Below, in pieces: positions 7-14,292 of a stretch of DNA of 64,000 bases. This DNA comes from Candidatus Kapaibacterium sp. (GTDB taxonomy: Bacteria; Bacteroidota; Ignavibacteria; Kapaibacteriales; UBA7675). How positions within the stretch are numbered: the stretch's first letter is position 1; the number at the start of each line of letters is the position of its first letter. The stretch covers positions 1-64,000 of the forward strand of contig JANQRB010000115.1 in NCBI GenBank assembly GCA_028284775.1, read 5' to 3'. A program made the translations under genes and the position numbers. The notes under the pieces are model-generated. The model did no database searches, was not told the DNA's origin, and saw only the letters and a list, made by a program, of their open reading frames with translations.

Positions 7-1836
7 ATGAACGACAATCTTATCAAAGCAAACAGCCTTGTTCTGTACAAATCGCGTCCGGCGCGGGTTGTTTCGGTCGGGGATAAAATCGAGCTGGCGC
101 TGGAGGGCGGCGGCGCGCAGCGGGTGCGTCCGAAGGATGTCATGCTCCTGCATCCCGGTCCTTTAACAAGCCTGGGCGAGCTCGTGCCGCAGGAGAGCGA
201 AGCCGCCCTGGCCTGGGAGCTGCTGGAAGACGGCAGCGTCACCTTGCAGGATTTGTCCGAGCTGCTCTTTGACGCTTATTCGCCGCTTACGGCCTGGGCG
301 GCCTGGCAGCTTGTCGATGAAGGACTGTATTTCCAGGGCAGCCCCGAAGCTATCCGGGCGCGCAGTGCCGAGGAATTGCGGCAGACACGTGAAGCGCGCG
401 AAGCCAAAGCGGCGCAGCGACAGGCCTGGGAAGCCTTTGTCGGGCGCGTGCAGGAGGCCCGGCTGCTGCCGGACGACAACGATAGGCTCGCTGATGTGGT
501 TGCGCTGGCGGAAGGGCGGGGCAGTCAAAGTCGCCTGCTGAAAACGCTGGCTATCCCGGCTACGCCCGAGAATGCGCATGCTTTGCTGCTCCGGACGGGC
601 TGGTGGGAAGAATCTGTGAATCCCTATCCCCGTCGCTGCGGTCAGACGATGGAGCGGACGCCGCTTGCGATTGGAGAGCTGCCGGAGGAGGAGCGCCTGG
701 ACCTGCGCCATCTGGACGCCTTTGCGATTGATGACGAGGGCAACCAGGATCCGGATGATGCCGTCAGCCTGGACGGCGATCGCATCTGGGTGCATGTGGC
801 GGATGTCGCGGCGCTCAGTCCGCCCGACAGTCCCCTTGATCTGGCGGCGCGCGACGCCGGCGCAACGCTCTATCTGCCTGAACGCACACTGACGATGCTG
901 CCCGTCCGCGCGACCGAATTGCTGGGTCTCGGCCTGCAGGAGCCGTCGCCGTCCCTGTCCTTCGGCTTCAGCCTCGATGCCGACGCCGCTGTCAGCGATG
1001 TCGTCGTGCGGCCCAGTCTGGTGCGGGTAACGCGCCTCAGCTATGCGCAGGCAGAGAAACGATTGCATGAAGAACCTTTCGCTCGCTTGCTGCGCCTGAC
1101 TGAAGAATTCCGCGCGCGCCGGCTGGCGCGCGGCGCGGCCGTCATCGAGTTGCCTGAAGTCAAAATCAGGCTGCGTGACGGCGAGGTGAGTATTCAGGAG
1201 CTGCCTCCGCTGCGTTCGCGCCGCCTTGTGACCGAAGCCATGTTGATGGCCGGCGCGGCCGCGGCGCAGTTCGCCATCACTCACAAGATTCCCTTTCCTT
1301 TTACCGCGCAGGCGCCGCCGGAAACACAGCAGCAGCCGACAGATCTGGCGTCGGCATTTGCCTACCGCAAGAGCTTTCAACGCAGCCAGAACCTGAGTTC
1401 GCCCGCGCCGCACGCCGGTCTGGGCCTGGCAATGTACGCCCGCGCAACGAGTCCCCTGCGCCGCTATCTCGACCTGGTCGTGCATCAGCAACTGCGCGCC
1501 TTTCTGCGCGGCGCAGCGCCCCTCGATGCCGAAGCTGTGCTGGCACGCGTCGGCGCGGCCGAAGCGGTTATCGACGGCATCCGGCGCGCCGAACGTTTGT
1601 CCAATCGCCATTGGACCTGTGTATACCTGCAGCGTAAGCCGGATTGGCAGGGCAGCGCAATCCTGGTAGAGCAACGGGGCCGTCGCGGTCTCTTCGTCAT
1701 CCCGGCGCTGGGCCTCGAAGCCTCGATCCTGCTGGAGCAGGAATTGCCGCTGAACAGCACCGTATCGCTGGCCCTGTCGTCGGTCAATCTGCCCGAACTA
1801 CAGGCGCATTTTGTAATTCGCCACCGGGAAGACTGA
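7..1836 (+). CDS. RNB-domain exoribonuclease (RNase II/R family)
   Basis: Predicted 3'-5' hydrolytic exoribonuclease, 609 aa, close to the length of E. coli RNase II and shorter than RNase R. The metal-binding motif IDDEGNQDPDDA has Asp at 242, 248, 250 and 251, the same spacing as the four catalytic aspartates of RNase II. A later motif, ATSPLRRYLDLVVHQQL, is the usual RNB C-terminal signature. The N-terminal part (KSRPARVV, VRPKDVMLLHPGP) looks like the small beta domain that opens many bacterial RNase II proteins, so the ATG at base 7 is probably genuine, although only six bases lie upstream. I see no clear extra S1 or helix-turn-helix region of the RNase R kind. Likely role: mRNA turnover in the cytoplasm. 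Confidence 0.88.
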   Translation: MNDNLIKANSLVLYKSRPARVVSVGDKIELALEGGGAQRVRPKDVMLLHPGPLTSLGELVPQESEAALAWELLEDGSVTLQDLSELLFDAYSPLTAWAAWQLVDEGLYFQGSPEAIRARSAEELRQTREAREAKAAQRQAWEAFVGRVQEARLLPDDNDRLADVVALAEGRGSQSRLLKTLAIPATPENAHALLLRTGWWEESVNPYPRRCGQTMERTPLAIGELPEEERLDLRHLDAFAIDDEGNQDPDDAVSLDGDRIWVHVADVAALSPPDSPLDLAARDAGATLYLPERTLTMLPVRATELLGLGLQEPSPSLSFGFSLDADAAVSDVVVRPSLVRVTRLSYAQAEKRLHEEPFARLLRLTEEFRARRLARGAAVIELPEVKIRLRDGEVSIQELPPLRSRRLVTEAMLMAGAAAAQFAITHKIPFPFTAQAPPETQQQPTDLASAFAYRKSFQRSQNLSSPAPHAGLGLAMYARATSPLRRYLDLVVHQQLRAFLRGAAPLDAEAVLARVGAAEAVIDGIRRAERLSNRHWTCVYLQRKPDWQGSAILVEQRGRRGLFVIPALGLEASILLEQELPLNSTVSLALSSVNLPELQAHFVIRHRED

Positions 1837-1969
1837 GCCCTGGAGTACATTGCGGGTAACCGCAGCGGCGTTGAAGGGTTTGGGACAGCTTCAAAACATT
1901 TCGCAACGCTTTTCGTGTGTCTGGCGGATTCTCCGGCGATACCGATAGCAAATTCAGACAGGAATCCGA

Positions 1970-3109
1970 ATGAGCAGAGATAACTATTTCCCCGGCACCG
2001 GATTGCGTTTCTTCACCCGCTGTCCGCTGCTGTTAGCCGCAGCCATAGTACTTTTGCCGCTGCCCCTCGACGCCTTTGATTTTCAACGTGAAACACCGGT
2101 TGTCGCCGATCAGAATCCCCGCGCCATCTCTCTCGCGGACTTCGACGGCGACGGCGATGTCGATATGGCGATTGTCAACCAGAGATCAAACACCGTCTCC
2201 ATTCGCAGCAATGACGGCAAGGGTCGATTCAGCGGAGCGGAAAATATCCAGGTGCAGGTTAAACCCTATGGCAGCGCGGCGGCCGACCTCGACGGCGATG
2301 GGGCCGCCGACCTGGCGGTTGTCAATTCGCGATCGCATACCGTTTCCCTGCTCAACAACCGGGGCGGCCGTTTTGTGAGCGGCGAATCTTATACGATCGA
2401 TGCTTCGCCGGTGAGCGTCATTTGCAGCGATTTCGATGCCGATGGCGATCAGGATATCGCCACATGCAATAATGGCGGACGCTCTATCAGCCTCCTGCTC
2501 AACGATGGCCGCGGGAATTTTCACGAAGCCCAGGTTCTGTCGGTCGGCCTGACGCCGATTGCACTCGTGCCGGGCGACTTCGATGGTGACGGCGACACAG
2601 ACATCGCTGTCGCCAACAATGGCTCGGATCGCGTCTGGGTATGGAACAACAACGGCAAAGCCTATTTCACTATTCACGTCAAATTCAAAGTCGGCGAAGG
2701 GCCGGCGCAAATGGTTGGCGGCGACTTCGACGGCGACGGCGATCTGGATCTGGCGACGGTGAATATCGGCAGCGACGATGTTTCGATCCTCAGCAACGGC
2801 GGCACCGGTGGATTCACGATCAGCCAGAGCCTGTCCGTCGGCAAAAACCCGAATTCACTGGCCATCGGTGATTTCGATGGCGACGGTCGCGAGGATCTGG
2901 TGGCGCTTAACTATTCCGATCAGTCGCTCAGCATCCTGCAGAATACCGCTGATAAGGGCTTTCGCAAAGTGAAAGACCTGCCTATCGCCACAACTCCGAC
3001 CGACATCGCCGTTTCGGACTTAAACGGCGACGGCTTGCTGGACCTGGCAATTGCGCATAGCTCCAACCATAATGTTGAAATCTGGCTGAATGTCACTTCG
3101 CGACCCTGA
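1970..3109 (+). CDS. exported FG-GAP/VCBS seven-repeat beta-propeller protein
   Basis: 379 aa with an N-terminal hydrophobic export signal (about residues 18-35). The rest is built of seven repeats of about 49 aa, each centred on a calcium-loop motif of the DFDGDGDxD type, with first Asp at residues 57, 106, 154, 203, 252, 301 and 350. Seven such units fit one closed integrin-alpha-like propeller. The protein ends at the last repeat and has no T9SS sorting domain, unlike the longer FG-GAP protein at 43612-45777. Substrate or partner unknown; such propellers usually bind ligands at the cell surface or in the periplasm. Nothing in its neighbours suggests a specific pathway. Confidence 0.8.
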   Translation: MSRDNYFPGTGLRFFTRCPLLLAAAIVLLPLPLDAFDFQRETPVVADQNPRAISLADFDGDGDVDMAIVNQRSNTVSIRSNDGKGRFSGAENIQVQVKPYGSAAADLDGDGAADLAVVNSRSHTVSLLNNRGGRFVSGESYTIDASPVSVICSDFDADGDQDIATCNNGGRSISLLLNDGRGNFHEAQVLSVGLTPIALVPGDFDGDGDTDIAVANNGSDRVWVWNNNGKAYFTIHVKFKVGEGPAQMVGGDFDGDGDLDLATVNIGSDDVSILSNGGTGGFTISQSLSVGKNPNSLAIGDFDGDGREDLVALNYSDQSLSILQNTADKGFRKVKDLPIATTPTDIAVSDLNGDGLLDLAIAHSSNHNVEIWLNVTSRP

Positions 3110-3742
3110 GCCCGAGTGAGTTAGCATTTCCAGTTGAAAGGGCAGGATTGACGATATCGAGACGGCGGATGAATCCGTCCGAATTGATGCAGCATTCGAT
3201 TTTTTTCGCTACTGCTGTTTCAAATAAGTTATTTGTAGTCCCCCTCTTTGCGAAAGAGGGGCCAGGGGAGTTCGAAAGGCCTAAAGTTCATAACACCTCA
3301 TCGTTTGGCGTTTAGTCCGCTCCTCATCCCCTTGCCTTAAGCGGAAGAAAGTATACAAACAACATATTTGAAAGAGCACTGATACGGTATTAATGCCTTT
3401 GACGAAAGTTTTTACTTCGGCGGCAGGGATGCAATACTGGTATCAAGGCAGGGATCTATGTTCTCAAGTACGAGAGAGCTCAGCCTGGAGGAAGCGCGCA
3501 ACTGGTTTTCACGACGTTGTTTATTATTCTTGCAAGTTTTTTTGATGAAACTTTCGCCGCCAATTGAAAAAGATCGAATCCAGCCAGAAAAAACAGCTGG
3601 CCAAATGACCGCATTTGTTAACTCGCTGAAGAATTGTTAGACTGAACCGGCTCCCGGTCGTATATGCCCAACAAACTTATCGTCGCGCTTACAGTTAGAC
3701 TCTGGCCTTTGACCTGATTTTTGCCGGACCGGAATGCATCGT
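3110..3742. other. intergenic region without a convincing gene
   Basis: Holds a perfect hairpin at 3241-3261 (separate entry) and a 60-codon open frame at 3458-3640. I do not call that frame, because it has no homology I recognise, no strong Shine-Dalgarno and no signal peptide. Confidence 0.5.
3241..3261. repeat. perfect 9-bp inverted repeat with GCG loop
   Basis: CCCCTCTTT at 3241-3249 and AAAGAGGGG at 3253-3261 are exact complements around GCG. It is followed by a G-rich stretch (GCCAGGGGAG) rather than a T-tract, so it is not a standard terminator. It may be one copy of a short dispersed intergenic palindrome; no second copy was noticed in the window. Confidence 0.5.
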
Positions 3743-4126
3743 TCAGTACATTGGATTACCGTTCTTAGTTTCTTTCGGCACACTTTGTATCGAATCCCAG
3801 TGTTCAACAATTTTGCCGGAATCGTCGAATCGAAAGAAGTCCATTGTAACGTATTCCTCGTTCCGGGGCCAGATCTGGTGAGTATGGAGCGCCACCAGGT
3901 CACCTTCCGCTACCACTCGAACAAACTCGATTTCTTTCTCGGGATATCTTTCCGCCATTTCACTGAAGTAGGCAATGAATGCCTCTTTTCCATTAGCGAC
4001 CAGCGGATTGTGTTGGATATATTCCGCCCCAACATATAACTCAACCGCTTTGGCCGGTTCTCCCAGGTAGGCTGTACGGTAAAATTCAATGGCGTTCCGT
4101 TTGTTCGCTTCGAGATCGTTTTTCAT
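3743..4126 (-). CDS. SnoaL-like / NTF2-fold protein
   Basis: 127 aa, counted from the ATG at 4126, which has GAGGAG six bases upstream (4133-4138 on the complementary strand); the open frame extends 16 codons further without support. The sequence has the SnoaL-like polyketide cyclase pattern: an N-terminal helix with NAIEFYRTAY, then YIQHNP, then GDLVALHTHQIWP, and a C-terminal strand with EHWDSIQSVP. The His and Asp of these segments line the pocket in this family. Substrate cannot be inferred. Members occur as stand-alone small-molecule-binding or isomerase-like proteins. It is convergent with nothing and appears monocistronic. Confidence 0.75.
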   Translation of the reverse strand: MKNDLEANKRNAIEFYRTAYLGEPAKAVELYVGAEYIQHNPLVANGKEAFIAYFSEMAERYPEKEIEFVRVVAEGDLVALHTHQIWPRNEEYVTMDFFRFDDSGKIVEHWDSIQSVPKETKNGNPMY

Positions 4127-4755
4127 GTTCAACTCCTCGGAATGGTAATGATCGGATTGCCGCGCCGCATTCATATTGTTACGAATTTCATAATGTTTCC
4201 TTTCTGCGCCCGGTCACGATTACTGTATGCGACACTTTCTCTACGCATGACAAATTAGCATCTCTTAGCAAACATAGAAATTATCGCAGATTTTAAGGAT
4301 CCTGGAAATTTAATTCCCTGGGGCTATTGTATGCAACCTTCGTCGACGACAGCTTTCCGGCCGCCATTTGAAAGCGGGCGAGACCTGCCCTCTCTATAAT
4401 CTTTGCCGGGCATCACTACTCTCTGAATCGCAGAGCAGAGGATTCACCGTGTCGCCATTCTGTCATTCGTGCTCAACGTAATGTTAATGACCATGAGCCT
4501 GCAAGTATGGCAATCTGTACCGGCTCACGCTTGCGGCTTCTTGCCGGATTGCAGGAATGAGCCTTTGAATTTTCACCATCGGGCGAATAATCGCTGACCT
4601 CGCATAACCCTAATTCGGGCCTAGTAAAAACCGGTGGCACCGTAATTCAGTGATGGCCGTCAAACTACAAGACTTAACGTTTTAAGACAATTGCCAGATA
4701 CCAAGATTATTGCAGATAAAGATACCGTAACCTTGAAACAGCTGCACAATTGAAC
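4127..4755. other. intergenic region, no gene recognised
   Basis: About 630 bases between the SnoaL-like gene and the terminator of the acidic repeat gene. A short frame starting at 4482 (MLMTMSLQVWQSVPAHAC) faintly resembles a signal peptide, but it stops after about 40 codons. I treat it as non-coding or decayed. Confidence 0.4.
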
Positions 4756-4789
4756 AAAAAAGGGAGGAAGCTCCTAAGAACTTCCTCCC
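4756..4789 (-). terminator. Rho-independent terminator of the acidic repeat gene
   Basis: Read on the minus strand, GGGAGGAAG and CTTCCTCCC form a perfect 9-bp stem with a 10-base loop, followed by six T (4761-4756). It lies 43 bases after the stop codon at 4832. Confidence 0.85.
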
Positions 4790-4831
4790 ACAGAGAACCG
4801 GAATAGATTTGCTATTCTGGCGATTGACGGT

Positions 4832-6583
4832 TTAGCGCGTAATGATAACCGGCGCGGTTTGGCTAAGCTGACCCGCCACCGCGATGTTAAGGAAATAAGT
4901 GCCGCTGGGCAGGCTGCGAACGTCGATCGTCAGGATGTTGCCGCCGCTTTGGGTCTGGACGGACTGGACGAATACCTGCTCGCCGGCGCTGTTGGAAAGC
5001 ACAAGGCTGGCAGATCCCGGGACCGCGTCGAATTCGACGCGCAGACTGTTAACAGCCGGATTCGGATAGGCGGCGATCGCCACAGCCGCCGAGCCTTCGC
5101 CGACGCCCGAGATGACGCGATCCGCTGCGCCTTCAGGATCGTGAACCAGCGCTTCGGCCTCTTCATCCCAGTAGCAGTCATCTTCATCGAAGAGGTCGGG
5201 GAATTCCTCACGGAGACGACGGAAGATTTCTTCGAGCTGTTCCTGCGTCGGCTCACCTTCAAAATCTTCACCGAGAACTTCGATCGCGATTTCGTTAATG
5301 CGCTTCTGCAGTTGTTCGAGCTCTTCTCTGCTCGGACCGTCTTCGGGCCATTCTTCTTCTTCTTCCCAGCCTGGACCTTCGTCGCAGTAGAGGAGGAAAG
5401 GCAGCTCGACGCCGAACTCTTCCAGCATCGTGTTATAGATCGACTCGCGGTCTTCCTGGCTGAGCGCACAGATATCGCCGTCCCAGTCATCGCCGCCCGC
5501 TTCGCGCAGCAGCTCTTCCAGGCGCATCGTCAGTTCGTCTTCCTCATACTCAGGCTCTTCGAAAGGATCGAAGGGCAGCTCGTCGCCGAACTCTTCTTTC
5601 AGTTTGTTGAGGATTTCTTCTTTTTGCTCGTCGCTCAACTCACCGTTTTCATTGCCGTCCAGCGCTTCTTCGATCAGTTCCTGCAGGCGCGTGATAAAGC
5701 GGACAATTTCATCGTCCTCGCCGCCGGGGAAATCGATTTCGTCGTCCGGGCAAATGATCATCGGCGGGCATTCATCGCCGAACTCTTCGCGTAAGCGCTC
5801 GTTAATTTCTTCGCGCTGTTCTTTGCTCAGGCTGCAGAGATCTTCGCAGGGCACTTCTTCGCCGACCACTTCCGTGATGATTTCGTGGATACGCTGTGCG
5901 ATATCTTCGCCGTCGTGACCCGGGAACTCACCGCCGGGGAACTCGCCGAAAGGATCGAAGGGCACATCGCCGAACTCTTCGCGCAGCTGTTCCATGATGG
6001 CTTCCTGCTCTTCTTCCGTCAATTGCCGGCGTTCGCCGTTCAGGGTCTCTTCGATCAGCTCGTTGAGACGCTCGAAGAAGGCTCTGAATTCGTCATCGGG
6101 GAAGTCGGGCATATCATTCTCGTCGCCCGGGAAGTCCGGGAAACCGTGGCCGTCGCCGCCGTCGTATCCGGGACGGCCCGCTTCACTTTCGCCGGCGTCA
6201 TTATAAGCTCTGACAAGGAAGTCGATCGGACGCGCGTCGCCGATATCCAGCGTACTGGCGATTTGCTCCAGACTAAGCGCTACTTCTGTTTCCACAACAT
6301 CAGCCAGCACGGCATAGTCGCCCATCTGACCGGTATAGACGTCGATGGCGGAGCCATAGAGTCTGTATCCATCCGCCACACCGCCATCGGGGTTGGCTTC
6401 CCATGAAAAGTTAAAATTGATTCCTTCGCCGGGATCGGCTTCGTTAACGAGCGTAACGGCTACTTGAAAATTGAGTGGTGCGCCCGGGACTGCTCCCTGG
6501 GCCCACGCTTCGCTGAGCCCGCATAGGCTAAAGGCCGCTACCAGGAGCCACAGGTTTCGCGTCAGTGTGTTTAATCGTTTCAT
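4832..6583 (-). CDS. acidic tandem-repeat secreted protein with T9SS sorting domain
   Basis: 583 aa. Signal peptide at residues 1-29 (cleavage after SEAWA/Q). Residues 32-130 look like one fibronectin type III domain (PGAPLNFQV, NFSWEANP, FLVRAYNDAGES). Residues about 165-465 contain five imperfect helical repeats, each ending in REEFG or a variant at residues 201, 265, 329, 387 and 458, and each with a motif like RLxELIEExL followed by QxEEIxxxLREEFG. Linkers are rich in Asp, Glu, Pro and Gly. The last 80 residues (YPNPAVNSLRV, VRSLPSGTYFLNI) are a type-A T9SS C-terminal sorting domain. Likely exported through T9SS and anchored at the surface. The repeats match no family I know. The strong acidity could mean calcium or mineral binding, which is inference. 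Confidence 0.8.
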   Translation of the reverse strand: MKRLNTLTRNLWLLVAAFSLCGLSEAWAQGAVPGAPLNFQVAVTLVNEADPGEGINFNFSWEANPDGGVADGYRLYGSAIDVYTGQMGDYAVLADVVETEVALSLEQIASTLDIGDARPIDFLVRAYNDAGESEAGRPGYDGGDGHGFPDFPGDENDMPDFPDDEFRAFFERLNELIEETLNGERRQLTEEEQEAIMEQLREEFGDVPFDPFGEFPGGEFPGHDGEDIAQRIHEIITEVVGEEVPCEDLCSLSKEQREEINERLREEFGDECPPMIICPDDEIDFPGGEDDEIVRFITRLQELIEEALDGNENGELSDEQKEEILNKLKEEFGDELPFDPFEEPEYEEDELTMRLEELLREAGGDDWDGDICALSQEDRESIYNTMLEEFGVELPFLLYCDEGPGWEEEEEWPEDGPSREELEQLQKRINEIAIEVLGEDFEGEPTQEQLEEIFRRLREEFPDLFDEDDCYWDEEAEALVHDPEGAADRVISGVGEGSAAVAIAAYPNPAVNSLRVEFDAVPGSASLVLSNSAGEQVFVQSVQTQSGGNILTIDVRSLPSGTYFLNIAVAGQLSQTAPVIITR

Positions 6584-7113: not shown

Positions 7114-7701
7114 TTGCTGAGTTTCAGGGCCCATAAACGTCTCGATGACTGCACTGACCAGGGATTGTGCGAATTGATCCGCGGTCCGAAGCGTGATGCC
7201 GAGGCGGCATTTACGGAGCTGTTCAACCGCTATTCGTCGCGCATCCACGCCTATATCTATCGGATTCTCAATCAGCCCGAACTTGCCGAGGATGTCTTCC
7301 AGGAGACCTTTCTGCGTTTTCACGAGGCTGTCAAAGCGGGACGCCCGATGACAAATGTGTCCGGCTTTCTCTTTACGGTGGCCAAGAATCAGTGTCTCAA
7401 TCACAAAAAAACGCAGAGTCGGCGGCAGATGCTGCCGATCCAGGATTTTGACTTCCCGGTGGGAGCGTCCAATCATGAGTCGGAAGAGCTGTTGCAGCTC
7501 GTAGCAACGGCACTCGACCTGCTGGATTTCGACTATCGCGAAGCCTTTGTGCTCAGAGAGTATGACGGTCTTTCCTTTGCCGAGGTGGCGGAAGTGACCG
7601 GCGCGTCCCTGGCCACGGCGAAGATTCGGGTGCATCGCGCAAAAAATAAAATCAAGCAAATTCTTAAGCCATATCTTAAAGATTTACTGGCAAATCAGTA
7701 G
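7114..7701 (+). CDS. ECF-type RNA polymerase sigma factor
   Basis: 195 aa, starting at a TTG preceded by AAGGTGA at 7101-7107. Region 2 (about residues 28-65) shows FTELFNRYSSRIHAYIYRI and LAEDVFQETFLRFHEA, the usual core-binding and -10 recognition segment. Region 4 (about 137-187) shows FDYREAFVLREYDGLSFAEV and the helix-turn-helix GASLATAKIRVHRAKNKI. It lacks regions 1 and 3, as expected of the extracytoplasmic-function class. The next gene begins 12 bases downstream and has the layout of an anti-sigma factor, so activity is probably controlled by release from that partner. Confidence 0.93.
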   Translation: MLSFRAHKRLDDCTDQGLCELIRGPKRDAEAAFTELFNRYSSRIHAYIYRILNQPELAEDVFQETFLRFHEAVKAGRPMTNVSGFLFTVAKNQCLNHKKTQSRRQMLPIQDFDFPVGASNHESEELLQLVATALDLLDFDYREAFVLREYDGLSFAEVAEVTGASLATAKIRVHRAKNKIKQILKPYLKDLLANQ

Positions 7702-7713
7702 CAGGGTACAACC

Positions 7714-9072
7714 ATGCAGTACTCCGAATTAATTAATGACTACCTGGACAATGTCCAGCTTTCAAGCGTCAAGGAAGACATGCTGTTTCAGGCGCTGGCT
7801 CACGACCAGGATTTGCGGCTGGAGTTTCGCTCGCTCTTGCTTGTGCGTCAGGCGGTGCGCAAGGATCATCGCGCCTATGTGCCACCCATGGCTTCGGTCA
7901 ACACGGTGTTCGCCAAGCTGGGCTATACGGCGCCCGCGTCGGCCGGCGCACTGGGCGGGATGGCAAGCGTGAAGAGCGCTTTACTGAGCAAACTCAGCCT
8001 GTCGACGGCTAATATCGTGTCGGCGCTTGTCGGAGCGATTCTGGCGTCGAGTCTGCTTCTGACATTCGGCGGCGGCGGCAGTGGATTTGCCGATGTCGGC
8101 GGCGGGCCGGACAGCAATACCGGCCCAGGCAGCACCGAGGCTCTGCCGCCACTCGCCGCAGTGCAGTTTCAGGAGCAGGACGAACATTCCGCTTCTGCCA
8201 GCGCTGCGACGCCCCCTGCTGTACAAAGCGTGCCGGAGCCGGTTCATAGTGCCGCGAACAGGGCCGCCGCGCCGCCGCCTGCTCGCAGGGCTCAGCACGA
8301 ATCGTCCGATGCCCGTTCAATTGACAATTTTGCGTATGCCCAACCGACAGTGCAGCACGAAAACAATGCGGTTGATTCACCGACGGCGGCGGATGCGACT
8401 GCATCTTCCTCCACGGCTGTAGCACACACTGAACCGAAGGATCCGAGTCTCGCGCTTGTTCCGGCCTCCCCTTTGGCGGAGTCGATGAATGCACTGTCGG
8501 TTCGGCCTTCGCAGTCAAGTTCGTCCAGCTATGGCAGACGCATTGCGCTGCCTGACGGTCTTATGGGCGCGGACTATTTCGGGGCTGTTTCCTCGCTGCA
8601 AACAACGTTTGAAGTTCGCAACCTCCAGATGTTCCATGTTCCCGGCGGTACGGTGCCGGTTAACGGCAATCAAGGGCCGGTTGACTTTGCCCTGCACTTT
8701 CGCTACGATCTCACGCCAAACAGCGCCATTGTTTTCGAAGCCGGCCGCGAGGCCTTTTTTCAGGAATTCGATGAAGTGTCCAACGACTGGCGCTACGAGT
8801 ATCGTCAGCAGCCGCAGATGTGGTGGTTCAGCGCGGGCTACCGTCACAGTTTTTTCAACAATGCCGTTGTTCAACCATTTCTGCAAGGCAGCCTGGGTAT
8901 CGCACAGGGCGGCGCTATGGGTCGTTTGCTGGCCGGAGGCCGTTATGATTTAAGCGAAAGCGCCTACGTGAATCTGGCAGTCGAGAGCAGTATGCTTCTG
9001 TATACGCATGGCGGCTCGATGTTCAGGTCGCATAACCTGGGTTTGAGCTATGGACTCGGATTTACCTTTTGA
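7714..9072 (+). CDS. putative dual-membrane-spanning anti-sigma factor with outer-membrane barrel
   Basis: 452 aa with three visible parts. Residues 1-55 (INDYLDNV, LFQALAHDQDLRLEFRSLL) resemble the small helical cytoplasmic domain of anti-sigma factors, but without the zinc-binding His/Cys motif. Residues about 99-118 form one hydrophobic membrane helix. A Pro/Ala/Ser-rich, low-complexity stretch of about 160 residues follows. Residues about 285-452 have alternating polar and aromatic strands and end in a terminal Phe (GLGFTF), as in outer-membrane beta-barrels. One chain could thus contact sigma in the cytoplasm, cross the periplasm and sit in the outer membrane, the plan of the Dma anti-sigma factors described in Bacteroides. 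The ECF sigma gene lies immediately upstream and two lipoprotein genes downstream. The anti-sigma role is inference from architecture and position. Confidence 0.68.
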   Translation: MQYSELINDYLDNVQLSSVKEDMLFQALAHDQDLRLEFRSLLLVRQAVRKDHRAYVPPMASVNTVFAKLGYTAPASAGALGGMASVKSALLSKLSLSTANIVSALVGAILASSLLLTFGGGGSGFADVGGGPDSNTGPGSTEALPPLAAVQFQEQDEHSASASAATPPAVQSVPEPVHSAANRAAAPPPARRAQHESSDARSIDNFAYAQPTVQHENNAVDSPTAADATASSSTAVAHTEPKDPSLALVPASPLAESMNALSVRPSQSSSSSYGRRIALPDGLMGADYFGAVSSLQTTFEVRNLQMFHVPGGTVPVNGNQGPVDFALHFRYDLTPNSAIVFEAGREAFFQEFDEVSNDWRYEYRQQPQMWWFSAGYRHSFFNNAVVQPFLQGSLGIAQGGAMGRLLAGGRYDLSESAYVNLAVESSMLLYTHGGSMFRSHNLGLSYGLGFTF

Positions 9073-9082
9073 TGCCGGCTTA

Positions 9083-9766
9083 ATGAAGAAGATATTAAGC
9101 ATATCGATGTTGTTCGCTGCTCTGTCGCTCATAACGGCCTGTCAGCAGCCGCTGGAATTCGATGCCCCGCGATCTCTTGACAGCACTGCGCTGGGCGGCG
9201 CTCCGGCGGAGGAAGAAAGTGAACGAACGGAGCGCCATGTCGATCTGATCGGCACGGAGATATTTGTATCCAACAGTTTGCCGAGCTTTCCCGGCGGCAG
9301 CTCGGGGCCCTGGTTCGTGGATGAATCGGCTCTGATGCTCCAGGCAGGCATCACAACGCGTGCGAACGTCGAATTACTAGATCTTGAACTCGAGATCTCG
9401 CATGAGCAGGATTTCGTGTTTCCCCTGCTGACTGATCCGACGCTGCAGGTTGCGAGCGTCCATCTGACGCTGGAGCCGGTCGCATTTGAATCCGAGGAGC
9501 CCGAGTCGATTGTTCTCAGCAGCGCAGACGGCGACGATGTCGGAATTGAAATCGGTACCGTCGACCTGATGAGCGCTACCTTTCAATCGACGGCAGACTA
9601 CCCGGCGTCGGTCGAGCTCATCCTGCAGCGCAGCTTTGTGATGGACGAGGATAATCAGATCGTCGACGCTGTCATCGGCTTTGCTTTCATTCGCAACGAG
9701 GAAGACATTCCGGGGGCCGCGAATATTATTTTCGAGTTGAATGTGTCTTTTCTGGTATTCTTATGA
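9083..9766 (+). CDS. lipoprotein, first of a paralogous pair in the sigma operon
   Basis: 227 aa from the ATG at 9083, which follows the stop of the barrel gene by 10 bases. The signal peptide MKKILSISMLFAALSLITAC ends in a lipobox with Cys20. Just after it lies QQPLEFDAPRSLDST, matched by QSPLDFDEPRQIDST in the next gene. Both proteins also share a DGD motif followed by a short EIG or DIG segment (ADGDDVGIEIGTVDL here) and a hydrophobic C-terminal end (NVSFLVFL here). No known domain recognised; mostly predicted beta strands. Proposed role: surface or periplasmic partner of the putative trans-envelope anti-sigma factor (inference). Confidence 0.72.
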   Translation: MKKILSISMLFAALSLITACQQPLEFDAPRSLDSTALGGAPAEEESERTERHVDLIGTEIFVSNSLPSFPGGSSGPWFVDESALMLQAGITTRANVELLDLELEISHEQDFVFPLLTDPTLQVASVHLTLEPVAFESEEPESIVLSSADGDDVGIEIGTVDLMSATFQSTADYPASVELILQRSFVMDEDNQIVDAVIGFAFIRNEEDIPGAANIIFELNVSFLVFL

Positions 9767-10488
9767 TAGGGACTATCCGGCGCCATAGAGCATCATCGCT
9801 GTTTAAGAGTGGACTGGCGCCAGCCATTATCATAGCTTGTCTGCTACTGAGCCAGGCCTGTCAGTCGCCCCTGGACTTTGATGAGCCGCGCCAGATCGAC
9901 AGCACAAGCGCAGCCCCCGATACCGAAGAACCCGATGTTAACACGGAAACACTGTATGACCTGCATATTGCTTATGCCGGTCAGTCGATTACTGAAGATG
10001 GTCAGGAAGAGCCTATTCTGGAATTCCCTTACCTGACACTTCCAGATGTTAACGGTAGTGTTTTAGAGGGGATCGTGACGACGTCGGCCAGCACTCAAAC
10101 GCTGTCCTTGAATCTGACCGTGACACATGAGAGCTGGTCGTTGGTTCCTCTTCCTGTCAGTAATCCGCAGCAGATCACGGGTTTTCATCTCGTCATGCCC
10201 GCCGAGCCCTTGACATTTGTGTCGCCTACCCTGGTTAGATTAAATACCGACGACGGCGATGAGGTCTCGTTGGATATCGGCAGCATAGACTTCGGCGGGC
10301 ATGGTTTGCCTGAGATCGAGAGCTATTCCGCAGAATGCCAAATTCTGTTCCAGCGCCAGAAGGAACTCGTCGACGGCGAGTTTGTGGACGTTGTCTCCTG
10401 TTATGTCCAGATCGGTAATACCGAGCCGGTCGACGGCGCTGAAGAGTTTAGTTTTCTGATGACCATGGTTTTTTTCATCCTGTTGTAG
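9763..10488 (+). CDS. lipoprotein, second of the paralogous pair
   Basis: 241 aa. The ATG overlaps the TGA stop of the preceding gene (ATGA at 9763-9766), which points to translational coupling. Lipobox Cys is residue 33 (LLLSQAC); the longer N-region is rich in Arg. It is diverged from its upstream neighbour but shares the post-lipobox motif, the central DDGDEVSLDIGSIDF element and the hydrophobic C-terminus (MVFFILL). The pair looks like an old tandem duplication. Function unknown. Confidence 0.72.
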   Translation: MIGTIRRHRASSLFKSGLAPAIIIACLLLSQACQSPLDFDEPRQIDSTSAAPDTEEPDVNTETLYDLHIAYAGQSITEDGQEEPILEFPYLTLPDVNGSVLEGIVTTSASTQTLSLNLTVTHESWSLVPLPVSNPQQITGFHLVMPAEPLTFVSPTLVRLNTDDGDEVSLDIGSIDFGGHGLPEIESYSAECQILFQRQKELVDGEFVDVVSCYVQIGNTEPVDGAEEFSFLMTMVFFILL

Positions 10489-10639: not shown

Positions 10640-11308
10640 GTGAAGATGGAGCCTCCCAGAATTGGCCTGCAAGTGGTCGTCGGGCTGACGATTCTTATGT
10701 TGTCCTTCGCAAGCATGACGGCGCAGCAATGGAGCCGCCGGCACAGCCTCGGCGATTATCTTGACCGCTTCGAGCTGAACTACGGTCTGGATTTCCAATG
10801 TTTCGACATCGACGCCCGCAGTCCGGCGCAGCAACAAAGCAACACGGGCATCACGAGCTCGCAGCTTCTTATACAGCCCGCCCTTGGTATTGCCTGGAAT
10901 GTTCCTCTGTACTTTGCCGGCGAAGACCTCGCTGTCGCCGTCAGTCCGGCCCTGCAGCTGAGTCTGGGCCGCAGGATGGAGGACCCCGATACTTTTGAAG
11001 GTTATTGCATCAACGGGGAAGACAGTTTCGGTTTCGGTACACTGGGGCTGCCGATACTGCTGACGCTGCGCCATGGCGCTGAAGCGGAATACAAACGGCG
11101 CTCGTCAATCGGAGCGGCGGCGGGCTTTGGCCTGCAAACCATCTGGCAGATCGGCACTTCCAGCTTTGTCCTGGCTCCCGCGATTGCGGCGGAGTTTGCC
11201 TTCGGTAAACGCGGCGCTGTTAAGCTGCGTCTCCTGCGCAGCTTTGCGGCAGCTCTTAACCCTGTCACCGATGTATCCGCTACTACCCTTACACTAAGCA
11301 TTCATTAG
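10640..11308 (+). CDS. probable outer-membrane beta-barrel protein
   Basis: 222 aa from a GTG that has GGAG about nine bases upstream; an ATG two codons later is the alternative start. A signal peptide runs to about residue 28 (SMTAQ/Q). The remainder has alternating amphipathic strands (PALGIAWNVPLYF, AVAVSPALQLSLG, FGTLGLPILLTLRHG, SSFVLAPAIAAEFAFG), typical of an eight-strand-like barrel of the porin or OmpW size class. It ends two bases before the helicase ATG, so the two are probably co-transcribed, though their functions look unrelated. Confidence 0.65.
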   Translation: MKMEPPRIGLQVVVGLTILMLSFASMTAQQWSRRHSLGDYLDRFELNYGLDFQCFDIDARSPAQQQSNTGITSSQLLIQPALGIAWNVPLYFAGEDLAVAVSPALQLSLGRRMEDPDTFEGYCINGEDSFGFGTLGLPILLTLRHGAEAEYKRRSSIGAAAGFGLQTIWQIGTSSFVLAPAIAAEFAFGKRGAVKLRLLRSFAAALNPVTDVSATTLTLSIH

Positions 11309-11310
11309 CG

Positions 11311-14292
11311 ATGACCAAGTCCCGTTTACCTGCCGCTCCCGACTCCGCCGCGCATATCTTTGCCTACCTGCGGGATTGTTTTAAGGCCGACAACCGCGCG
11401 TCGACCCTATGGAGCGTGTTGAAACTTGATAAATCCGACAAGGTCATTTTTCTGGAAGGCGAAGAGCTGCTCCTGAGCGGGCTTGTGCAGGCGCTGCCCA
11501 TGCAGCAGGAATTGGAATCCGAGGCGATGCGCGCCAAGGCCTGGGTTCAGCGCGGAGAAAAGAACCTGATCTATGCCTCGTTTTTTGTTGTCGGCGCCCA
11601 TGTCGAGCACATGGGCAAAAAAATCCCTTTGTGCGCTCCAATCTTTCTTTACCCGGCAAAAATAAGGGAGGAACAGGAACTGACCGTCAGTCTTGAAGAA
11701 CGTACACTTAACTTTCCTCTCATCGAACTGCTCTGCGGCGATAGTGACTACGCGATGGACTGCGCCGCGCAGATCGCCGAACAATTGCCGCCCGGCAGAC
11801 TGGAATTCGCGGAAGCCGGACGACTGGCGGATATTTTGCGCGAGACGTCGCCCCACCTGGATTGTGATCCTCTTTACCTGTATCCGGAGCTACAGAGCGA
11901 AGCGGCGCTACGCAAAAGGGCGGCTGCTCGTAAACAGGGGATGTCCGTCCTGCCCGGCGGAGCGCTGGCGCTTGTTAAAAAATCGCGTGACTCGCGCGGG
12001 ATACTTAACGAGCTTACGATGATGGGCGCGTCCTCCGTCTATTCGCCGCCCCTGGCTGTCACTCTGGGCCGCGCGCCGAGCAAGAGCAAAGAAGAAGCCG
12101 CCGACATCGAAGTGCGAAACGTTCCGGCGATTTTGAGCAGCGCGCAGAGCGCAATCCTGGATTCCGCCGCGCGCAATCCCTTGAGCCTGGTGATCGGTCC
12201 GCCCGGCACCGGCAAGTCATTCACGATCGCGGCCATCGCGCTGGAGCATCTGAGCCGGGGGCAGTCCGTCCTGATCGTATCGAAAATGAATCATGCCGTG
12301 GACGTCGTGGGGGCGAAAATTGAAGAACAATTACAAAGCGGCGATGTCGTGATGCGGGGTGGCCGCAAGGACTACCGCAAACGATTGGTGGCACGCTTCA
12401 ATGACTGGCTGCACGGCGGGGAACACAATGTGGAAGCGCTTGAAAGGCAGATCCTTCAGTTGGATGAAGACATCGAGGCGCTTAACAGCCGGATCGCCAT
12501 GCTCGAAAAAAAGTTTAGCTCCATGAATGCCGCCGAGAACAAACGCGCGGCCTACCTGGCGGCGGACGAAGGAATCGTCCCTGCATCCACCGGGTCGCAG
12601 GAGCTGCTGCCGGCCTGGCTGCACCGCTTTGTCCTGCCCTGGGTACGCTTTCGCGCCAGACGGGAAACGCCCCAATGGAGCGTGCTGGCCGAGCTGGAAT
12701 CCTGCATGAACAGGCGGCATGCGCTCATCGTGCAGCGTATCATGCTTCAGAATAAGCTGCGCGTCAGCTTTGCGCTCCGCTATCATCGTCGGGATATTGT
12801 TAACTTTCGCAAATCTCTGACGGCCCGCAGCGAACACAACCAGCAGCGCTACCTCAGCTCGGTCGATAAATCTGCGATTATCGACACATTTCCCGTCTGG
12901 CTGGTAAACCTCAGCGATCTGAATGAAGTACTGCCGCTGAAAGAGGAACTTTTTGATGTTGTCATCATCGATGAAGCGACCCAGTGTGATATCGCCGCGG
13001 CACTGCCGGCCATGCAGCGCGGGCGGCGGGCTGTTATAGTCGGCGACCCGCGGCAACTGCGCTTCATCTCTTTTTTGTCGCGTGACCGACAGGCCCTGAT
13101 CGCCAAGCGGCACGGTCTCAACGCCGACGAGACACAGCTCTTCAATTACCGTGAAAACAGCATTCTTGACCTCATGGACGAAAGCATCAGTGACCAACGG
13201 CAGGTGATTCCCCTGGGCGAGCATTTTCGCAGCGTCCCGTCCATAATAAGATTCAGCAACCGGGAGTTCTACCGCGACTCGCTGCGCATTATGACGGAGA
13301 GGCCGCATGAAGTTGCAGCGTTTTGCGGTGTACAGACGCGTATCGTGGCTGGACGCCGGCGCAGGAACGGTGTCAACACCGAGGAGGCAGAGGCATTGAT
13401 CGCGGAAGTTAAACAGCTCATTGAAAACCAGCGTTTCTTTAATGCCGCTGCGTCTTATTCGATCGGTATCCTCTCGCCCTTCCGCGATCAGGTGGACTTT
13501 TTGCGCGCCGAGCTGCTTAAACAAATTCCCACATCGCTATTGGAAAGACATAAAGTAATGATCGGTACCTCTCATACCTTTCAGGGTGAAGAGCGCGATG
13601 TGATGTTTCTCTCTTTTGCCGTTTGCGGGCAGACTTCACATGCCGCACATTACTTTCTGAACAAAGCCGATGTGTTTAATGTAGCAGTGACGCGTGCGCG
13701 CTTAGGGCAAATGGTGTATACTTCACAGCCGGCGGATGCGATTAAACAGGACACTTTACTTAAGAAGTACCTGTTGGCGATTAGTGATGCAGGCGAGGAG
13801 CAGATGCCGGATGCCGATCATCCTCAGGATAAGTTCTTGAATCGCGTTTGCGATGAGTTAGAAAAGCTGGAGCTGCGCTATTATAAGGCGTATCCGATTG
13901 CCGGTATCATAATAGATATTGTGTTGGAACGAAACGGCCTGTGTTACGGCATTGACTTGATCGGTTTCCCGGGCGCCTTTCAATCGCGTATTTCGCTTGA
14001 ACGTTTTCGACTGTTGCAGCGCGCCGGGCTGTCGATTTTTCCGCTGCCCTTTTCAAAGTGGACATTAGAGCGGGACCGCTGTTTACAAGACTTGAAACGC
14101 TTTATTCATTACGACGACTTGCCCCGCGACGCCAAGGGAGCGCTACGCAGTGCCGGGAAGGGAGACGACAATCAAATGACAGCCACCCTGGGTGAAGGAG
14201 TTTCATATTTGTATAAGTATCCCGGCAGTGACGACGGAGAGAACATTGTTTACAGACTCTCAGATGATGACGAATCCAGGCAGGCAAAGTAG
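11311..14292 (+). CDS. Upf1-like superfamily 1 helicase with C-terminal nuclease-like domain
   Basis: 993 aa. Walker A GPPGTGKS has Lys302; a coiled-coil insertion follows (about 375-420); Walker B IIDEAT is at 552-557; motif III GDPRQL, motif IV GEHFRS, motif V GTSHTFQGEE and motif VI VAVTRAR (ends at 797) are all present, as in the Upf1/Dna2-type group. The N-terminal 250 residues (CAPIFLYP, LNFPLIELLCG) recall the DUF4011-type region of other bacterial Upf1-like helicases. Near the C-terminus, IIIDIVLERNG then YGIDLIG (Asp869, Asp882) fits a VSR/PD-(D/E)XK nuclease fold, with Asp in place of the more usual Glu. Such fusions occur both as repair enzymes and in defence islands; no other defence gene lies nearby. 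Confidence 0.82.
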   Translation: MTKSRLPAAPDSAAHIFAYLRDCFKADNRASTLWSVLKLDKSDKVIFLEGEELLLSGLVQALPMQQELESEAMRAKAWVQRGEKNLIYASFFVVGAHVEHMGKKIPLCAPIFLYPAKIREEQELTVSLEERTLNFPLIELLCGDSDYAMDCAAQIAEQLPPGRLEFAEAGRLADILRETSPHLDCDPLYLYPELQSEAALRKRAAARKQGMSVLPGGALALVKKSRDSRGILNELTMMGASSVYSPPLAVTLGRAPSKSKEEAADIEVRNVPAILSSAQSAILDSAARNPLSLVIGPPGTGKSFTIAAIALEHLSRGQSVLIVSKMNHAVDVVGAKIEEQLQSGDVVMRGGRKDYRKRLVARFNDWLHGGEHNVEALERQILQLDEDIEALNSRIAMLEKKFSSMNAAENKRAAYLAADEGIVPASTGSQELLPAWLHRFVLPWVRFRARRETPQWSVLAELESCMNRRHALIVQRIMLQNKLRVSFALRYHRRDIVNFRKSLTARSEHNQQRYLSSVDKSAIIDTFPVWLVNLSDLNEVLPLKEELFDVVIIDEATQCDIAAALPAMQRGRRAVIVGDPRQLRFISFLSRDRQALIAKRHGLNADETQLFNYRENSILDLMDESISDQRQVIPLGEHFRSVPSIIRFSNREFYRDSLRIMTERPHEVAAFCGVQTRIVAGRRRRNGVNTEEAEALIAEVKQLIENQRFFNAAASYSIGILSPFRDQVDFLRAELLKQIPTSLLERHKVMIGTSHTFQGEERDVMFLSFAVCGQTSHAAHYFLNKADVFNVAVTRARLGQMVYTSQPADAIKQDTLLKKYLLAISDAGEEQMPDADHPQDKFLNRVCDELEKLELRYYKAYPIAGIIIDIVLERNGLCYGIDLIGFPGAFQSRISLERFRLLQRAGLSIFPLPFSKWTLERDRCLQDLKRFIHYDDLPRDAKGALRSAGKGDDNQMTATLGEGVSYLYKYPGSDDGENIVYRLSDDDESRQAK

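Follow-up and report, generated by a model that had tools for sequence, protein, structure and literature searches.

How might a sigma factor in the cytoplasm be informed of the state of the outer membrane? The question is raised by a four-gene operon at positions 7114 to 10488 of the window analysed here, a stretch of 64,000 nucleotides from contig JANQRB010000115.1 of Candidatus Kapaibacterium sp. (assembly GCA_028284775.1), in which a gene for an extracytoplasmic function (ECF) sigma factor is followed by genes for a 452-amino-acid (aa) protein and two lipoproteins. The original prediction, made from the sequence alone, had equated the plan of the 452-aa protein with that of the dual-membrane-spanning Dma anti-sigma factors of Bacteroides. 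We find it likely that the operon is a three-part outer-membrane-to-cytoplasm signalling unit, in which the 452-aa protein links the sigma factor to the outer membrane by a tether, and the lipoprotein reports the state of the envelope from a docking site on the barrel.

We modelled the 452-aa protein with AlphaFold (AF2) using six sequences. The proposed plan, an anti-sigma-like start followed by one membrane helix, a linker and a C-terminal outer-membrane barrel ending in Phe, was upheld by this model together with Foldseek, and both the N-terminal helices and the C-terminal barrel were present in the predicted structure of the protein alone. The barrel blocks mostly had a predicted local distance difference test (pLDDT) score of 77–92, and the barrel extended to the final residue (C-terminus ...GLGFTF); Foldseek matched it to OmpA, NspA, Ail, OmpW and OprF (E 3e-7 to 1e-4), all of them 8-stranded. 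By AF2 secondary structure, the N-terminus has the four helices of class I anti-sigma domains, the first three of which form a bundle and for which zinc binding is not required (PMC7406223). The linker is rich in Pro and Ala as had been noted (19% Ala, 15% Ser, 11% Pro), and measures 176 residues instead of the roughly 160 first given.

The family to which this protein belongs was defined as 63 distinct genes, collected from the fetched loci, whose products combine the N-terminal domain with the barrel. An ECF sigma gene lies directly upstream of 62 of them, so that the sigma neighbour is retained in related genomes, and a lipoprotein gene lies directly downstream of the barrel gene in about 53 of the 60 loci whose sequence reaches far enough downstream (51 by a strict table, plus L041 and the overlapping loci L047/L006, where the linked lipoprotein carries the signature CQSPLDIVTPK). 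These two adjacencies indicate that the operon arrangement is not due to chance. The N-terminal helices hold invariant residues across the order, with the motif FLDGxLxxxxExxLFxxLxxDxxLR, and the HxxxCxxC zinc motif, correctly reported as missing, was found neither in the window protein nor in any of the 63 members. Linker length was held (median 174 aa, 128–222 aa in 61 of 63) while linker sequence was not conserved, as expected for a tether crossing the periplasm. Phe was the C-terminal residue in 39 of 63 members, and the third-last residue was aromatic or aliphatic in most. Neither the 452-aa protein nor the lipoproteins matched any Pfam family above the gathering cut-off, and the only weak matches repeated among 16 members were to two anti-sigma families, RseA_N (6 of 16, best E 0.011) and zf-HC2 (5 of 16, best E 0.0088), both sub-threshold, with the window protein below the cut-off. 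Full-length and N-terminal profiles gave no significant match among PDB sequences, and the weak matches of the N-terminus include RsiW and DdvA. At L138, a short stand-alone membrane protein adjoining a sigma gene matches the same N-terminal domain. Taken together, operon order and sigma pairing are shown and barrel and tether strongly predicted, and the anti-sigma function of the 452-aa protein is well supported.

The family is large and appears to be undescribed; it was not described in the literature searched, in a search without most subscription journals. A protein search gave 24 matches within the genome of the window (7.9 Mb), which carries about 20 family members. Of 61 genomes, 60 had matches, and all of these belong to the same family or order. 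A search with a four-member alignment gave five loci, with relatives labelled mostly as Chlorobiota and Ignavibacteria metagenome bins, and a profile search that went beyond the order, over 248 genomes of the phylum, gave weaker members for a few genomes from within the class and hardly any others. The order of sigma, anti-sigma/barrel and lipoprotein genes is kept at L221, L223 and L225, three loci from a different family of the class. The genome of the window also has an unusually large set of about 70 sigma region-2 matches, roughly 20 of them paired with the family. At L033 two complete units are arranged divergently, head to head (1363–3243 on the reverse strand and 3422–5446 on the forward strand). 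At six loci (L153, L157, L158, L160, L161 and L162) sigma genes accompany proteins of 300–360 aa with a related anti-sigma N-terminus, one membrane helix and no detected barrel; these form a sister group with a different periplasmic end.

The presence of two coupled lipoprotein genes after the 452-aa gene was confirmed, and the lipoproteins are paralogous as predicted. They had been regarded as an unusual addition, which the count of downstream lipoproteins does not bear out: the lipoprotein is a standard third component of the cassette. Directly after the lipidated cysteine, the linked lipoproteins share the consensus C-[TK]-S-P-L-[DE]-[VLI]-D-[TA]-P-R, which is largely absent from unlinked lipoproteins; C..P at the lipobox cysteine was present in 17 of the 36 linked lipoproteins and in none of the 43 unlinked ones, many of the latter being from other families of the phylum, such that the control is not purely within-genome. 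Sequence divergence of the lipoprotein bodies is rapid, and clear relatives of the window lipoproteins were found only in L061/L046, L062 and L063, each time as a single copy directly after the family gene, which identifies the window pair as the result of tandem duplication; three lipoproteins in tandem are present at L034 and two at L036. At L041 (contig C108 of the same genome, G000), a family member (3332–4594) and its lipoprotein (4601–5221; CNDPLEVDTPT) have no adjacent sigma gene, which was either lost or never present, and this arrangement suggests that the lipoprotein travels with the barrel protein. Distance matrices of sigma factor, anti-sigma domain, barrel and lipoprotein were correlated, even among 15 paralogs of the window's own genome, where barrel distances correlated with those of the lipoprotein N-terminus (Mantel r = 0.38, permutation p = 0.0055). 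The lipoproteins were also considered as NigD proteins (NigD_N oligonucleotide/oligosaccharide-binding fold plus NigD_C beta-sandwich), and this assignment was rejected, with no Pfam match and hhalign probabilities below 1%; NigD_N had no match in the window's own genome.

We then compared the family with the Dma and Reo proteins, which restrain an ECF sigma factor and share the family's plan (PMC13088901, PMC9308784, PMC13114119). Dma1 and Dma2 of B. thetaiotaomicron and the EcfO-Reo pairs of B. fragilis and P. vulgatus share with the family the ECF sigma partner, linked lipoprotein genes and, in one chain, an anti-sigma N-terminus, a single inner-membrane helix, a long disordered tether and a C-terminal outer-membrane barrel. 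They differ in that the family's lipoprotein is non-NigD and fixed downstream, and in number, with about 20 copies per genome in the family compared to three Dma proteins named in B. thetaiotaomicron. As a reference we took Reo-type proteins picked by gene context, not by accession, from two genomes (L188 and L189) in which a NigD gene lies beside the sigma gene; these proteins have 409–425 aa, a membrane helix and an OMP_b-brl barrel. Neither the anti-sigma domain nor the barrel of the family had detectable sequence homology to the Reo type (hhalign 0.3% for each), and values against a further set of proteins, from another Bacteroidota family, were 1.8% for the anti-sigma end and 0.6% for the barrel, whereas that set matched the Reo type at 93% and 91%, respectively, as a positive control, and split halves of the family matched each other at 99.9–100%. 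In these comparison proteins the conserved residues of the anti-sigma end read PxxxxWxxIExxL, unlike the family motif. The equation with Dma thus holds for architecture, through AF2, Foldseek and the sigma neighbour, and fails for sequence homology; by sequence, the family is separate from Dma and possibly of independent origin. The PG0214 sigma family (NF058625) was tried as a route to Dma and set aside, its loci carrying short anti-sigma factors, not barrels.

At L145, L171, L174 and L178, a separate set of sigma/anti-sigma/barrel loci in other Bacteroidota, the next gene frequently encodes a lipoprotein that has a conserved post-cysteine segment of its own (CSDKCEETYNYVY type, and in L145 LVIVD repeats). 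Since NigD adjoins the Reo-type pairs of L188 and L189, and several members of the further set are followed by lipoproteins that are of LVIVD type or unnamed, a lipoprotein next to a trans-envelope anti-sigma factor may be a repeated feature.

Other known systems resemble parts of this arrangement. The class I zinc-free anti-sigma domains of RseA and RskA (PMC7406223) likewise have four helices and need no zinc motif; the family's weak RseA_N match lies below the Pfam cut-off, and its chain runs on into a tether and an outer-membrane barrel. TonB-dependent cell-surface signalling of the FecA/FecR type (PMC9249621) also leads from an outer-membrane barrel to a cytoplasmic ECF sigma factor, though through a large TonB-dependent receptor and a separate anti-sigma factor, in place of one polypeptide with an 8-stranded barrel. 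RcsF with outer-membrane proteins is the closest tested precedent for a lipoprotein that reports through a barrel (PMC4942254, PMC7553776): it too combines a lipoprotein with outer-membrane barrels, OmpA among them, and reports the state of the outer membrane. RcsF, however, signals to the Rcs system via general outer-membrane proteins, while the family's barrel is part of the anti-sigma factor and is paired with its lipoprotein by operon only.

From these comparisons we propose the following sequence of events. Predicted fold and gene order suggest that the ECF sigma factor would be held inactive by residues 1–71, the four-helix, class-I-like domain, from which the chain would pass through one inner-membrane helix and a disordered tether of about 176 residues across the periplasm to an 8-stranded OmpA-type outer-membrane barrel, the latter predicted confidently. 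The co-transcribed lipoprotein would be the outer-membrane partner of the barrel protein, its conserved post-cysteine segment probably docking on the barrel and its fast-evolving, putatively all-beta body carrying out recognition; we infer a sensing role for it. When the outer membrane is perturbed, or when barrel or lipoprotein fails to assemble or to bind a ligand, the tether would be altered or cut, the anti-sigma domain would release, and the sigma factor would transcribe its regulon, which probably includes the operon itself, by analogy with EcfO-Reo and Dma1. With roughly 20 units in the genome, the paralogs probably differ from one another in the input they read, and at the window locus the putative recognition subunit is duplicated. 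A bolder version, in which a second origin of two-membrane-spanning anti-sigma factors gave about 20 channels per genome, each with a dedicated lipoprotein that plugs or threads its barrel via the lipid-proximal motif, so that the sigma factor answers a specific surface signal, strikes us as doubtful.

Several observations weigh against the proposed three-part unit. The structure models are of single chains, with no complex among them; pLDDT of the N-terminal domain is only moderate, at 66–74 up to residue 40 and lower beyond; and the model of the lipoprotein, with a mean pLDDT of 57, is too poor for a fold to be assigned. The distance correlations agree with partnership, but joint inheritance of the operon could produce them as well as contact. 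At about 7 of the 60 loci no lipoprotein gene can be recognised downstream, so that the lipoprotein may be dispensable. This last point also favours the main rival, in which the lipoproteins are output: made as regulon products once the sigma factor is free, they would serve the outer membrane or vesiculation as NigD does, and the barrel alone would sense outer-membrane stress. Among EcfO-Reo targets, NigD surface lipoproteins belong to the most strongly induced (PMC13114119, PMC9308784), NigD1 is required for Dma1-linked vesiculation (PMC13088901), and NigD adjoins the sigma/Reo-type pair in both L188 and L189. The family's lipoproteins are not NigD by profile comparison, however, the covariation of the barrel with the motif beside the lipid anchor fits a physical partner better, and at L041 the lipoprotein is kept with the barrel protein where the sigma gene is absent. 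We regard this rival as unlikely, if still worth serious weight, and the two roles are compatible.

A further reading has the unit mainly monitoring outer-membrane protein assembly, with a barrel left unfolded by the beta-barrel assembly machinery (BAM) exposing its C-terminal Phe segment to a periplasmic protease, the anti-sigma factor undergoing regulated proteolysis and the lipoproteins serving as folding helpers. The frequent C-terminal Phe and the nature of the third-last residue would agree with this. Such C-terminal segments resemble signals read by DegS-type proteases. In addition, BcpT induces an EcfO-Reo-type pair plus many genes that bacteroidetocin A, an inhibitor of BamA, induces as well (PMC9308784). 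We nevertheless consider it improbable, as C-terminal Phe is typical of outer-membrane barrels generally and about 20 divergent paralogs per genome favour many specific inputs over one common check. Only slightly less improbable is that the family is a true, highly diverged member of Dma/Reo: domain order, sigma neighbour and C-terminal barrel are identical and both lineages fall within one phylum-level group, yet hhalign remained at 0.3–1.8% for both domains where the further Bacteroidota set reached values above 90%, and the conserved anti-sigma residues differ. That the protein is an ordinary OmpA-like barrel protein whose N-terminal helices are no anti-sigma domain would suit the lack of Pfam domains above the gathering cut-offs, and is very improbable given the sigma adjacency, the invariant helix residues, the weak but repeated RseA_N and zf-HC2 matches and the stand-alone relative at L138.

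Coordinates of the operon and its parts are collected in Table 1. The four open reading frames were confirmed where they had been placed, as was the position of the 452-aa gene 12 bases after an ECF sigma gene, from the sigma stop (7699–7701) to the ATG at 7714. The sigma start position is consistent with the ortholog in L045. For lipoprotein 1 the ATG at 9083 is the most likely start, as that at 9050 would overlap the 452-aa gene; the lipobox cysteines are at 9140 and 9859. An Rfam search of the operon gave zero matches, and promoter and terminator scans gave signal at or near chance. Divergent from the operon lies a gene (4832–6583, reverse strand) for a 583-aa secreted protein with a Por_Secre_tail domain (type IX secretion tail) and repeated acidic EEFGD segments. 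Downstream, a gene for a 222-aa exported protein (10640–11308, forward) is followed after 2 bases by one for a 993-aa AAA_11/AAA_12 helicase (11311–14292, forward), an odd pairing.

Table 1 Features of the sigma/anti-sigma/lipoprotein operon, in window positions.
Feature	Positions	Strand	Evidence
ECF sigma factor, 195 aa, TTG start	7114..7701	+	Pfam Sigma70_r2 2.1e-15, Sigma70_r4_2 2.7e-14
Trans-envelope anti-sigma factor, Dma-like architecture, 452 aa	7714..9072	+	AF2 model; sigma adjacency 62/63
N-terminal anti-sigma domain, residues 1-71	7714..7926	+	AF2 helices 3-13, 18-30, 32-49, 59-68; without zinc motif
Inner-membrane helix, residues 98-119	8005..8070	+	AF2 helix, low pLDDT; hydrophobic segment here in all family members
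Disordered Ala/Ser/Pro-rich periplasmic tether, residues 120-296	8071..8601	+	pLDDT <50 over 120-293
C-terminal 8-stranded outer-membrane beta-barrel, residues 297-452, last residue Phe	8602..9069	+	AF2, Foldseek
Lipoprotein 1, 227 aa	9083..9766	+	Alternative ATG 9050; homologs directly downstream of family gene in L061, L062, L063
Signature CQQPLEFDAPR of lipoprotein 1, post-lipobox	9140..9172	+	Match to consensus
Lipoprotein 2, 241 aa	9763..10488	+	ATGA overlap with stop of lipoprotein 1; 33% identical to lipoprotein 1
Signature CQSPLDFDEPR of lipoprotein 2, post-lipobox	9859..9891	+	Match to consensus

Anti-sigma factors that physically connect the cytoplasm with the outer membrane have been described from Bacteroides and Phocaeicola (PMC13088901, PMC9308784, PMC13114119). 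The interest of the present family lies in its likely separate origin, its amplification and its dedicated lipoprotein, the last being a candidate, open to test, for the sensing subunit that is still missing. Only 6% of Bacteroidetes ECF factors had a recognisable class I anti-sigma neighbour (PMC7406223), a scarcity that the family may help explain. That a family apparently without relationship to them shares the plan, has been amplified into many paralogs and is fixed together with a lipoprotein bearing a signature of its own suggests that the plan serves as a general solution within this region of the tree.

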